A stretch of 36,722 bases of DNA from an uncultured Oscillatoriales cyanobacterium (GTDB taxonomy: Bacteria > Cyanobacteriota > Cyanobacteriia > Cyanobacteriales > Microcoleaceae). Both the position numbers and the translations under genes were made by a program. The notes beneath the pieces were generated by a model. The model was not told the DNA's origin, did no database searches, and saw only the letters and a list, made by a program, of their open reading frames with translations. Shown here one piece after another: positions 10,173 to 33,621 of this stretch (its first letter is position 1; each line of letters begins with the position of its first letter). The stretch lies in the NCBI GenBank assembly GCA_903893625.1, contig CAITND010000148.1:1-36722 (forward strand). The letters run 5' to 3'.

Positions 10173-10616
10173 TTAGGATTCAAGCAGAGAATTTTCTGAC
10201 AAGTTGGAATATTCTTCATGGTTTTGATTGGAATCATGGCTTGCTATTGGACTCGACTGAGTTAACAATTTCAAAGCTTGAAGTTCAGTTTCTAAGTTTT
10301 GGAGTCGGCGTGAAAGTTCTTTATTTTCTGTTAATAAAGCTTGAGATTGACTATTAAGATAGGGGTCACTTTCCCACCAATTAATTCCTATCTCCCGCGC
10401 TTTATCAACAGACGCAATCAAGAGACGAATGCGGATATGAAGGAGTTCAGTAGAGGCGATCGACACAGAAATATCGCCAGCAATTACAATTCCTTTATCT
10501 AAAACTCGTTCGAGAATATCCGCTAAAGTAGAACCTTGAGTAGAAGTTGTTATTGTGTGATTGGAGGGGGTTTTGGTGGGGGTTATAAAAGTAGAGGAAG
10601 TCACAGTTGGTTTCAC
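10173..10616 (-). CDS. gvpJ: Gas vesicle protein GvpJ, minor shell-like protein
   Basis: 147 residues with a GvpA-like core at about 30-90 ([18 protein letters not shown], then [21 protein letters not shown]). It has a Thr/Ser-rich N-terminal extension and a polar C-terminal extension with a heptad-like [23 protein letters not shown]. GvpJ is a GvpA paralogue thought to sit at the vesicle tips or in the nucleus of growth. The start is GTG at 10616, overlapping the gvpN stop in a GTGA arrangement, so the two are translationally coupled. The final 25 residues are Asn/Ser/Glu-rich and probably disordered. Confidence 0.92.
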
Positions 10617-11758
10617 TCAAAAATGATATAAAACTGGTCTTGTTTTTTCAGCAATTGCTTTTGTTGCAAAGAACGAAGTGCTTTTTCTACTTGATTTTGC
10701 TTGATTTTTAAGGTTTCATAAATTTCATGAAATCCCGCTCTTTTTTTCCGCTGCAAATAATGATAAATTTGTTGTTCATTTTCCGTTAAAGGTTCTGAAG
10801 GCAAGACGATCTGTGTCGGACTATCAGTTGACTCTACAACGGGTAAGGATTCGGTTTGGTTTTCGTTAAGAATTTCCCATAAAATGGGTGTAGATTGACT
10901 GATGGATAAATCCGTGCGTGACAAGAGAACATCTGCACAAATATCACGGAAATCTGCTTGATCGGGGGTGACAACAATATCATGTTCGGCGCAGACTTTG
11001 GAAATCATTAAACAAGATCGCAAACCCGAAGTTTTTTCAGCAGCAGTTTTCAGACGAAATGTTTTGACGACGTGAACAATGAATAAAGCATCTTCTCGAC
11101 TAATTCCTGTTTTTTGTGTCAAGATTTCAGTTTGAGTTAACTCATCCGGTTCTGGCATATTAATCGTTACCAACCGATCCATTAAAGCGTCTTGGGTGGC
11201 GTGAACCCCACAATATTCTTCAGGATTGGAGGTAAAAATTGCCCGAAATTGAGAATGGACTTGAAGATAGTCGGGTTGATTACTGCTTGGTGGCAGAGTG
11301 AGAATTTTTTCTTCTAAGGCAGAGAGTAAAACGTTATTAACTTCGGGTCGAGAACGGTTGAATTCGTCATAAACTAAGGTAAACCCTTCTCGACAAGCCA
11401 TTGTCAATCGAGAATCAACCCAATTATGTTTGAGTTCGTCCTCAACTTTGAGAACGCTGTGGATATAGTTATCCATCAGTTTTTTGTGGGTGTAACCCGA
11501 CTGACTCCCAATTAAATCGGAACTGGTAAAGTCATCATCTCCGAAAATTAGCATCACGGGTCTGGCTAAACAGTTGGCTAGGTGCATTGCCAATGTGGTT
11601 TTACCTGTTCCCGCCGGGCCACGCAGATGAATGGAAAAGCCAGATTTTAGGTAACGCAAAGCCCGGGTTGTAACCTGGTGGATAGAGGGTGTAACGACAA
11701 ATTGACCAGGGCGGACGCGGAGAACTGATCTTTTTGTTTGAGGTTCAGCAACTGTCAT
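10613..11758 (-). CDS. gvpN: Gas vesicle AAA+ ATPase GvpN with a C-terminal winged-helix-like extension
   Basis: 381 residues. It is a MoxR-type AAA+ domain: Walker A GPAGTGKT at 47-54, a Walker B with [14 protein letters not shown] near 130-143, sensor-1 region [15 protein letters not shown], and an arginine-bearing [17 protein letters not shown]. GvpN is required for growth of gas vesicles beyond small bicones in some systems; with GvpJ and others it is thought to act at assembly sites. After the AAA core (to about 285) come a linker and a C-terminal module (about 320-381: [20 protein letters not shown]..., then [18 protein letters not shown]) that looks like a winged helix. The ATG at 11758 is clear. 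It is the first gene after the structured RNA region that follows gvpC and is coupled to gvpJ by a 4-base overlap. Confidence 0.92.
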
Positions 11759-11813: not shown

Positions 11814-11843
11814 TTGACAAATTGCAAAAAAATGTGTTATGTT
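11814..11843 (+). promoter_or_regulatory. Sigma-70-type promoter pointing toward gvpC, against the gvp operon
   Basis: TTGACA at 11814-11819, an 18-base spacer and TATGTT at 11838-11843. The layout (TTGACAAAT start, 18-base spacer, TATG-T -10) closely resembles the gvpA promoter at 13041-13070, but it points the other way. It lies 55 bases upstream of the gvpN start on the opposite strand. Implied transcript start is near 11850. Confidence 0.55.
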
Positions 11844-11849
11844 CCTGAA

Positions 11850-12119
11850 AACAGTTATATAGTTACCTAAATACATACTTTTTGCATATCTGTTGGCGGT
11901 GAGACTAGCCGTTATCGCCTGCTAAGGGAAAAGGGTAACTATCCCTTAGTTTGCAGGAAGCCTGTATCCGCAAGGACAGGAACTCTGCTTCCAAGTTGAG
12001 TTTAGGATCTCAAAAAAGCAGAAGAGGTCATAGTTTAAAACCTAAAAACTCATTGTTGTATTCTAACCACAACCCTCTAATTGAACTAGCCTTTTGGCTA
12101 GTTACTAGAGGGTTTTTTA
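11850..12119 (+). ncRNA. Candidate structured RNA between gvpC and gvpN (possibly HEARO/omega-RNA-like)
   Basis: No convincing gene is present on either strand of the 385-base gap between gvpN and gvpC. On the plus strand a promoter-like element and a strong terminator bracket about 270 bases with a row of hairpins. These are GGCGGU/AUCGCC (11895-11919), CTGC-TAAGGGA/TCCCTTA-GCAG (about 11920-11965), GGAAGC/GCTTCC enclosing CCTGT/ACAGG (about 11957-11993) and TTGAG/CTCAA (about 11998-12018). A 72-codon open frame (11951-12169) runs past the terminator into gvpC antisense and is not protein-like. The nested stem set recalls the HEARO (IscB omega-RNA) class, which can occur without its nuclease; that comparison is from memory and untested. 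Alternatives are an IS relic, a gvp-specific regulatory RNA, or processing hairpins of the minus-strand gvp mRNA. Confidence 0.5.
12073..12118 (+). terminator. Rho-independent terminator of the plus-strand RNA unit
   Basis: Outer stem CCCTCTA/TAGAGGG (12073-12079, 12106-12112), inner stem AACTAGCC/GGCTAGTT (12084-12091, 12096-12103), TTTT loop, then six Ts. The T-run is only on the plus strand, so the hairpin serves plus-strand transcripts and stops them 25 bases before they would become antisense to gvpC. Confidence 0.8.
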
Positions 12120-12143
12120 CTTTAGGCTTAAGCGCGGTCAGAA

Positions 12144-12539
12144 CTAAGCCGGAGAAGTCCCAAAAATAGAGACGAACAACTCTTGGCGAAATTGACGCAA
12201 ATGTTGTTTTTGCTCCTTGGCTTGAGCCAGGCGTTCTTTTTGGGCCACTGTCAAAAACTGACGACTATCTTGCTGCAATTTTTTGTGAAATTGGCGCAGA
12301 ACAATCGCTTGTTTTTTAGCTTGAGACAGACGTTCTTTTTGAGTTGCCGCTAAAAACTGACGACTATCTTGCTGCAATTCCTTGTGAAATTGGCGCAGAA
12401 CAATCGCTTGCTCTTTAGCTTGCTTGTGTCTTTTTACTTTGATGTCAGACAGAGAAGCTTGAGTCTCTTGAAAGAGTTCAGCAACTTCTTCTGCTATTGA
12501 CAAACGCTCCTGTCGGAATTTTTCCATGAGAGCAGCCAT
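12144..12539 (-). CDS. gvpC: Gas vesicle outer strengthening protein GvpC (short form)
   Basis: 131 residues, highly charged and fully helical in appearance. It contains 33-residue repeats built on [29 protein letters not shown]: two nearly complete units plus shorter flanking ones. GvpC lies on the outside of the GvpA ribs and stiffens the vesicle; its repeat number and length set vesicle width and collapse pressure. The predicted mass is near 15-16 kDa, similar to the smallest Planktothrix form (GvpC16), which as I recall goes with narrow, pressure-resistant vesicles. At DNA level the repeats are exactly 99 bases apart and almost identical (12253 versus 12352). It lies 211 bases after gvpA. 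The ATG at 12539 is clear; the C-terminus ends [10 protein letters not shown]. Confidence 0.92.
12257..12430. repeat. Tandem 99-bp repeat inside gvpC
   Basis: The segment AACTGACGACTATCTTGCTG recurs at exactly 99-base spacing, with the following bases (GAAATTGGCGCAGAACAATC) also conserved. Such near-identity invites unequal recombination, a plausible source of GvpC length variants. Confidence 0.85.
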
Positions 12540-12750: not shown

Positions 12751-12966
12751 TTAGGCGGGAACCGCAGCAGATTGAGTCAAGCCTACGGCTTCGGCATATT
12801 TCAGATAGGTTTCAACAGAAGCGATAACAATACGGGCTTCAATTGCTAATAATTCGATACCCACCAGGGAGACACGAACCCAAGCATCAATAACGATACC
12901 TTTATCAAGGATCCGATCAATAACTTCAGCTAAACTAGAGGAAGAATTTGTTTTTTCGACAGCCAT
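12751..12966 (-). CDS. gvpA: Gas vesicle main structural protein GvpA
   Basis: 71 residues, the standard GvpA length. Core: [20 protein letters not shown] (about 11-30), [20 protein letters not shown] (about 31-50), then [13 protein letters not shown]. This is the amphipathic shell protein that forms the ribs of the gas vesicle by self-assembly. Only one copy occurs in this window, whereas many cyanobacteria have two or more; further copies may lie elsewhere. ATG at 12966 with AAGG upstream. It is the first gene after a consensus promoter (13041-13070) with a leader of about 70 bases, consistent with very high expression. Confidence 0.98.
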
Positions 12967-13040
12967 GGTTTTAACCTTGATTACTCATTGTTGTTTATTT
13001 TGTCGAGGAGTAAGAAGTTTTTCTTTTCCTGACACTCCGA

Positions 13041-20506: not shown

Positions 20507-20555
20507 GTCAACTGTCAACCGTCAACCGTCAACTGTCAACCGTCAACCGTCAACC
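20507..20555. repeat. Heptamer tandem repeat (seven GTCAACY units)
   Basis: Seven uninterrupted units of GTCAACT or GTCAACC fill the divergent gap between the two envelope genes. Being 7 bases long, the repeat lets false start codons extend both flanking frames into it. The same heptamer appears in the opposite orientation at 23290-23322. Confidence 0.92.
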
Positions 20556-20558
20556 GAA

Positions 20559-21494: not shown

Positions 21495-21506
21495 TAGGGA
21501 ATGGGG

Positions 21507-21569
21507 AATTACGAATTACGAATTGGGAATTACGAATTACGAATTACGAATTACGAATTACGAATTGGG
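21507..21569. repeat. Heptamer tandem repeat (nine AATTACG/AATTGGG units)
   Basis: Nine in-register 7-base units: AATTACG seven times with two AATTGGG variants (third and ninth). It lies between the 3' ends of the beta-lactamase-like gene and the ammonium transporter. A C-rich stretch with CCCCTTGT and TTCCCTG repeats follows to about 21625. Words of this repeat also form the palindrome at 3600-3643. Confidence 0.92.
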
Positions 21570-21638
21570 AATAGTTATTTCCCCTTGTCCCCTTGTCCCC
21601 TCATCCCCCTGTTCCCTGTTCCCTGCTATAGCTAGGAA

Positions 21639-23289: not shown

Positions 23290-23383
23290 GGTTGACGGTT
23301 GACGGTTGGCGGTTGACGGTTAGCTCTTAGGGAGCGAGGACGCTCCCCCTGCTCCCCCTGCCTCCCCTGCCTCCCCTGCTCCC
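23290..23383. repeat. Heptamer repeat GGTTGAC and C-rich short repeats
   Basis: At 23290-23322 there are four GGTTGAC/GGTTGGC units plus a partial one, the reverse complement of the heptamer at 20507-20555. At 23338-23383 there are repeated CTCCCCCTG/CTCCCCTGC words, directly before the PRC-barrel gene's 3' end. Confidence 0.85.
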
Positions 23384-33128: not shown

Positions 33129-33464
33129 GTTTAACACCTTGAAAGATTAGGTGCTGTGAGTTATTTTAGGGACAGAACTTATATCGACCTGATAGTTTCA
33201 CAGGTGATCTGAGGAAGAATGTGAATCATAGCGGAGTGGTTCTATTCTAGCGTGATTTGAGGACAGGAACAAATTCACCACTCGCAGAGAATAAAAAAGA
33301 ATAATAAGAATAATTAATTAAATTTAAGATTGATAACAAGTTCTCTGGGTTTTAGGATTCTAGGACTTACGCATTGACAAAATAGAAGATAACCGCTTTC
33401 ATTAGCTATAAATTGAGGAAATTTTAACTCAATTTTGAAGGATTTTAAGCTAAACTATTAACAG

Positions 33465-33511
33465 AAAAAGCATCTGGGAGTCTGGCCGAGTTTCGACCCC
33501 AGATGCTTTTT
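33465..33511 (-). terminator. Strong terminator downstream of secA, symmetric
   Basis: A perfect 14-bp stem (33465-33478 with 33498-33511) built on AAAAAGCATCTGGG, loop of 19 bases. T-runs follow on both strands, so it can stop transcription in either direction. It lies about 110 bases after the secA stop. Confidence 0.8.
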
Positions 33512-33621
33512 CTTTTCAGACTTCACTCCTCACACTCCTCAAATATACACGATTATTTGGGGATGTCAAGAAAAAAGTTAGGAATCCAAATCTTAATAAA
33601 TTCTAAAAACGACTCAAAACC

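Follow-up and report, generated by a model that had tools for sequence, protein, structure and literature searches.

Gas vesicles give bloom-forming cyanobacteria their buoyancy and also serve as acoustic reporters. To our knowledge, how cyanobacteria match the output of GvpA to that of the other Gvp proteins is poorly understood. Known regulatory RNAs include base-pairing small RNAs (sRNAs) whose seed targets a ribosome-binding site, such as Yfr1, which has an unpaired motif. RNAs antisense to regulated operons form a further group. Within the account given in PMC6202907, the cis-antisense RNAs IsrR, As1_flv4, and PilR are transcribed against regulated cyanobacterial operons and overlap their targets. 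An antisense RNA has also been described for a gvp operon, that of Calothrix sp. PCC 7601 (Csiszar et al. 1987, Gene 60:29-37, as cited in PMC6202907). As summarized there, the Calothrix RNA is ~420 nt long and complementary to three overlapping gvpABC transcripts; it is proposed to pair with gvp mRNA as a duplex and is located 56 bp upstream of the gvpA start codon.

The locus examined here lies in the window, a stretch of 36,722 nucleotides from an uncultured Oscillatoriales cyanobacterium. The gap between gvpC and gvpN carries on the plus strand, antisense to the operon, a TTGACA-N18-TATGTT promoter, conserved hairpins, and a terminator. Similar to the Calothrix RNA of PMC6202907, the predicted product is antisense to a gvp operon in a cyanobacterium. 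In contrast to that RNA, it is predicted to be ~269 nt long, is encoded downstream of gvpC (or of gvpA), and would reach the gvpA leader through a short box; the attributes reported for the Calothrix RNA in that source (~420 nt, all three transcripts, gvpA 5' region) are not those of the predicted RNA. Similar to IsrR, As1_flv4, and PilR, the RNA is predicted to be antisense to the operon that it would regulate, but unlike these RNAs as described in PMC6202907, its proposed target is ~0.9 kb away at the operon 5' end. With the sRNAs that carry a seed against a ribosome-binding site it shares its own promoter and terminator, a conserved box, and complementarity to the Shine-Dalgarno region; it differs from them in being encoded opposite to and inside its target operon, with a 12-nt complement at one genome site.

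Antisense and base-pairing sRNAs are therefore already known as a kind, including the 1987 Calothrix gvp antisense RNA. What appears to be new, judged from sequence, is the conserved box before the terminator that is complementary to the gvpA leader. No description of a gvpC-gvpN small RNA or of an RNA directed at the gvpA leader was found in the titles, abstract openings, and text passages covered; the RNA may already stand in Table S3 of PMC4734099, which comprises 327 predicted sRNAs of Nostoc 7120. No mention of gvp or gas vesicle was found in PMC10287535.

The predicted RNA gene and its strand

The gvp operon of the window is located on the minus strand and consists of gvpA, gvpC, a 385-nt gap, gvpN, gvpJ, and further genes. 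The gvpC gene contains a 99-bp tandem repeat (12210-12422), which fits 33-residue repeats. In what follows, genomes are labeled G (G000 being the source genome) and loci L; the contig of the window is C148, and L128 is the window again. The features of the locus are as follows.

10613..11758, minus strand: gvpN
11814..11819, plus strand: -35 element TTGACA of the predicted antisense promoter; TTGACA is kept in L006, L007, L133, and L140
11838..11843, plus strand: -10 element TATGTT, TG-extended; TAnnnT stands at one aligned place in 27 rows (by eye)
about 11850..12118, plus strand: predicted sRNA of ~269 nt, its ends deduced from promoter and terminator
11895..11919, plus strand: hairpin 1 (GGCGGUGA...UUAUCGCC), helix 1, with 91.7% of cells paired and 0 double changes
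11918..11957, plus strand: hairpin 2 (CCUGC...GCAGG), helices 2-3
11960..11980, plus strand: hairpin 3, helices 4-5
11984..12023, plus strand: hairpin 4 with an inner stem, helices 6-8, with the most double changes
12026..12043, plus strand: predicted pairing stretch, from duplex prediction, facing the gvpA start codon at 12026-12031 and the Shine-Dalgarno sequence at 12039-12043
12048..12059, plus strand: core of the conserved box, ACTCATTGTTGT, a perfect complement of the gvpA leader
12071..12118, plus strand: predicted intrinsic terminator, stem ~12071-12114, T6 at 12113-12118
12144..12539, minus strand: gvpC
12751..12966, minus strand: gvpA, 71 codons
12975..12978, minus strand: Shine-Dalgarno-like AAGG of gvpA, read from the leader sequence
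12983..12994, minus strand: predicted target site ACAACAATGAGT in the gvpA leader

The initial annotation had proposed the promoter, four successive hairpins, a strong terminator with a six-T tail, and the lack of a protein-like frame, and these observations hold. The promoter is TG-extended with a -10 element that is conserved in relatives, the hairpins fit the consensus structure, and the T-rich side of the terminator is the plus strand in most relatives. Taken alone, scans for either signal were weak (2 promoter-like sites vs 1.7 expected; 3 terminator-like sites vs 1.3 expected). The conservation of both signals in relatives points to an intrinsically terminated small RNA gene with its own promoter and a predicted transcript, for which lengths of roughly 190-390 nt were estimated in relatives from the -10 offsets. 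The gap in the window contains no complete plus-strand frame of at least 25 codons, and plus-strand frames of at least this length in the gaps of nine relatives were common only to close pairs. A 72-codon frame with a TTG start (11951-12169) crosses the terminator into gvpC. A small protein on the plus strand found no support, as no reading frame is conserved. Searches with Rfam 15 gave no gathering-score match to any family in the gap.

The strand of the element has been probed by several comparisons. The plus strand of 11814-12125 folds with -91.5 kcal/mol (z = -4.2) and the minus strand just as well (z = -4.9), so the two strands are not distinguished by fold stability on its own. Of 60 upstream regions, each of 330 nt, 55 contain the extended -10 pattern TGnTAnnnT, vs 25 expected from shuffles, a count in which the pattern is accepted anywhere within the 330 nt. 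Ten of the 55 matches belong to Microcystis and mostly lie 17 nt before the box, so that they are not the box promoter; without the 12 Microcystis rows, the pattern is present in 45 of 48 regions. A better case for the promoter comes from the alignment, in which TA and the last T hold the same position around three variable bases (by eye). No clear antisense promoter was found in L122, L125, L131, or Microcystis, where the extended -10 is missing at the expected place. The consensus fold is more favorable on the plus strand than on the minus strand both in the alignment of the window with nine relatives (A2; -33.4 vs -25.3) and in that of the terminator helix (A1; -9.8 vs -4.5). Among 45 distinct hairpins, T-richness after the stem is greater on the plus strand in 37, equal in 3, and less in 5. 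Furthermore, the hairpin is stabler on the sRNA strand in 34 of 46 cases, a rough count as a few stems were drawn too wide. The promoter, the T tail, and the consensus energies consequently favor the plus strand. The differences between box and leader amount to G.U pairs in 7 instances and A.C mismatches in 8, so box substitutions do not show the strand.

Compensatory changes suggest that the secondary structure has been kept. In A2, 93.8% of the cells of 44 consensus pairs are paired and 12 of the pairs are changed on both sides; the covariation score was reached in 0 of 500 shuffles and lies above all slid versions. A1 comprises 30 of the 35 element rows, the near-duplicates L015, L017, L019, L031, and L041 being excluded. 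Here 93.3% of cells are paired and both sides have changed in 4 of 9 pairs; 20 of 500 shuffles reach this number of double changes and 0 of 500 the score. As the rows are related and RNAalifold picked the structure on the same alignments, these covariation counts lean towards structure. Covariation, which the initial annotation had named as a check on its structured RNA, is thus seen in both alignments. The structured and independently bracketed plus-strand unit proposed there is likewise borne out, its position and structure being conserved in relatives with this type of gvp cluster.

Distribution of the element

The alignment of 27 gvpC-gvpN gaps, from the window, two genomes of the same genus, Phormidium LEGE 05292, and Nostocales, reveals three conserved blocks on the plus strand: the extended -10, the box around AAACTCATTGTTGAAT, and the terminator hairpin near the gvpC stop codon. 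In Microcystis, the box and terminator are kept and the 5' part is different. A covariance model of the 3' module of the element (box and hairpin, 30 rows), hereafter R1, matches 51 places in 44 of the 388 genomes of the order. All 51 places adjoin gvp genes in antisense orientation; for 49 of them, 322 gvp matches are antisense and 0 are on the element strand, L006 and L007 having been looked at separately. Among 80 named gvpN loci, R1 scores at least 44 bits in 35.

The gvpN gene was found in 105 of the 388 genomes, and the 44 R1-positive genomes coincide exactly with those in which GvpN scores above 490 bits. R1 was not found in the other 61 gvpN genomes at E<=0.01, a search in which stricter filters may lose weak matches. 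From this agreement, the RNA seems to be a constant component of a single gvp operon lineage. In the genus of the window, the cluster of this type is present in 3 of 10 genomes and may have been horizontally acquired. The initial annotation had tied its proposal to retention of the segment in close relatives, which holds for two of them, where it is kept at 80-82% identity; seven of the ten genomes lack this whole gvp cluster.

The element is also kept in six loci without gvpN in the fetched stretch (L113, L142, L143, L148, L139, and L141), in two of which (L139, L141) it sits behind gvpA alone. Five distinct loci have the hairpin without the box: L048, L050 (the same as L147, on the same contig), L058, L146, and L151.

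Several observations on gvp cluster content were made alongside. G000 contains a second gvp cluster, on contig C29, which is unlike that of the window and whose GvpN is 58% identical. Two unlike gvp clusters per genome are found in G000 (C29 and the window) and also in G002, G003, G092, and G179. In G140 (L139/L169) and G108 (L141), a second cluster consists of gvpA without nearby gvpC or gvpN, followed by the antisense RNA; the next long frame after the gvpA-only cluster of G140 has 398 codons. G167 has three element copies (L142, L143, and L144); for two of these, the fetched stretch shows a gvpA-gvpC cluster and no gvpN. The gvpN match in G312 and G368 contains two in-frame stops. G312 has its element on the minus strand at 1574743-1574840, in a lineage without the box. 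Nostoc punctiforme NIES-2108 (L026) also has the element; hormogonium RNA-seq exists for this species (PMC6495340), as does a transcription start-site map for N. spumigena CCY9414 (PMC3610870).

Complementarity to the gvpA leader

The putative target was found because the 10 remaining weak R1 matches around the 80 named gvpN loci pointed at gvpA. All 10 lie antisense to gvpA and have their ends no more than 1 nt from its start codon; the gvpA leaders at these places hold, for example, TCAACAATGAGTTAAGG, in which the Shine-Dalgarno sequence follows the reverse complement of the box. In the window, ACAACAATGAGTAATCAAGG lies upstream of gvpA. The 12-nt sequence ACAACAATGAGT occurs twice in the 5.83-Mb genome, once opposite the box and once 16 nt before the gvpA start codon. 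The predicted duplex in the window has an energy of -29.2 kcal/mol and is composed of 12 bp in the box, 5 bp at the Shine-Dalgarno sequence, and 6 bp at the start codon. In its predicted fold, the window RNA leaves the box half paired (unpaired probability 0.47).

Perfect complementarity of at least 10 nt is present in 25 of 43 gvpA leaders, vs 0 of 42 for gvpC, 0 of 32 for gvpN, and 0 of 7 for gvpJ, these being the usable starts in the 46 loci given. The duplex energy beats that of shuffled leaders at p<=0.05 in 40 of 50 distinct box windows, where p is the value for the leader with the longest run; by run length, p<0.05 is reached in only 26 of the 50. When a longer piece of the sRNA was compared with 60-nt leaders by duplex energy, gvpA was best in only 26 of 40 clusters, and the length of perfect complementarity discriminated leaders better than did this energy. 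L146, L147, and L151, in which the box was not found, were excluded from the duplex, complementarity, hairpin-stability, promoter, and T-tail counts, as was L128, except from the duplex test with shuffled leaders. Rows were skipped if their box deviated by more than 23% from each of the five patterns, and gvpA copies if they lay about 50-62 nt or less from where a fetched stretch ends.

In 11 of 15 multi-copy gvpA arrays, the duplex energy is best for the first copy (in G330, 16 nt vs 6 and 6), as expected if the leader at the operon 5' end is the target; the first copy here is the first within the fetched stretch. Twenty stretches yielded 17 first gvpA leaders, 12 of which had p<=0.05; G346 and G378 gave no leader, and the first copy in G275 was too near the end.

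The pairing has also been compared between groups. In the Dolichospermum type, box and leader both carry a CAACAACAACAAG-like sequence in sense. On Dolichospermum-type leaders, their own boxes give runs of 12.5 vs 6.2 for Nostocaceae boxes, a case that is compatible with co-change of box and leader, but Dolichospermum-type boxes fit Nostocaceae leaders as well (12.8 vs 12.5 on their own). In the two gvpA-only clusters, the box has 14-nt complementarity to its own leader, including GAGTTC; as L033 has the GAGTTC box variant without a leader change, the variant does not prove that box and leader changed together. In Microcystis, pairing is weak, with runs of 6-9 nt and p<=0.05 for 5 of 8 first gvpA copies. 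Microcystis boxes do better on foreign leaders (11.1) than on their own (7.1), which looks like loss of the leader site in Microcystis. Pairing is also weak in G257 and G180. Taken together, the comparisons argue for a conserved and target-specific seed that is predicted to be complementary to the gvpA ribosome-binding site, one that fails in the five box-less loci and is weak in Microcystis.

Proposed mechanism and alternatives

The best explanation of the element, and one that we regard as probable on these sequence comparisons, is an operon-embedded sRNA that blocks gvpA translation. The sRNA would be transcribed from its own promoter against the operon, and its box and flanking bases would then anneal to the ribosome-binding site of gvpA; in the window, this would involve the 12-bp core and the short Shine-Dalgarno and AUG helices. 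This pairing would block translation initiation and/or expose the mRNA to RNase, and synthesis of GvpA, the main shell protein, would fall.

The chief alternatives concern which strand acts and on what. If the element acts on the sense strand, the mRNA would carry a hairpin after gvpC together with a repeated gvpA leader box. These would shield the 3' end of gvpAC or serve as a decoy for whichever factor binds the gvpA leader, and the plus-strand RNA would not be made. The box is identical in sense to the gvpA leader and could be a repeat of shared origin, the hairpin forms on both strands, and the box substitutions leave the strand undecided. We nevertheless consider this explanation unlikely, as the antisense extended -10 recurs far more often than expected, the sequence after the stem is richer in T on the antisense strand, the consensus fold is better on that strand, and, by the rough count, so is the stability of the hairpin. 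The RNA might instead be made and act in cis only, on the gvpC-gvpN junction that it overlaps, where cleavage, termination, or interference would uncouple the structural genes from the assembly genes. The RNA is perfectly complementary to this junction and lies between gvpC and gvpN in most loci. However, the element persists behind gvpA alone and in clusters without gvpN in the fetched stretch, and its most conserved block matches the gvpA leader rather than the gvpC or gvpN leaders; an exclusive action on the junction is thus distinctly improbable. The same two observations bear on the control of readthrough suggested in the initial annotation, which may survive as a side effect and is not where the box points.

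It had also been suggested that the RNA is a HEARO (omega) RNA left by an IscB-type mobile element. HEARO (RF02033) is a structured RNA of similar length and is common in this genome, but the Rfam model gives no match in the gap even at E<=10. As a control, the same model finds 35 matches elsewhere in the genome (E<=1; 21 over the cut-off) on many contigs, none of them on C148. The element is moreover fixed beside gvp genes in 44 genomes, and a mobile repeat was rejected since there is no second copy of the gap in the genome, other matches to it being 36 nt or shorter. An origin from HEARO can consequently be set aside with near certainty.

For the sRNA directed at the gvpA leader, the position of its gene has a further consequence. 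Operon transcripts that extend past gvpC are perfectly complementary to the sRNA, so readthrough should titrate it. The operon could on this basis be self-licensing, with the sRNA repressing gvpA unless transcription passes gvpC and the readthrough mRNA serving as a perfect 269-nt sponge. Translation of the shell protein would then require that the distal assembly genes be transcribed, and a bistable switch could result from convergent transcription. This extension is rather doubtful, and the element clusters without gvpN nearby speak against it as a general role. Should the predicted RNA act at the gvpA ribosome-binding site, its one-to-one occurrence with one gvp operon lineage in the sampled genomes would make it a simple control point. 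Additionally, constructs that take gvpA-gvpN in one piece from such clusters may carry the RNA unnoticed.

Two observations were made elsewhere in the window. Heptamer tandem repeats of GTCAACC, GAATTAC, and GGTTGAC are present at 20507-20556, 21499-21572, and 23290-23321. A Cyano-1 RNA (RF01701) is matched by Rfam at 33462-33539 on the minus strand with 49 bits, vs a gathering score of 41.
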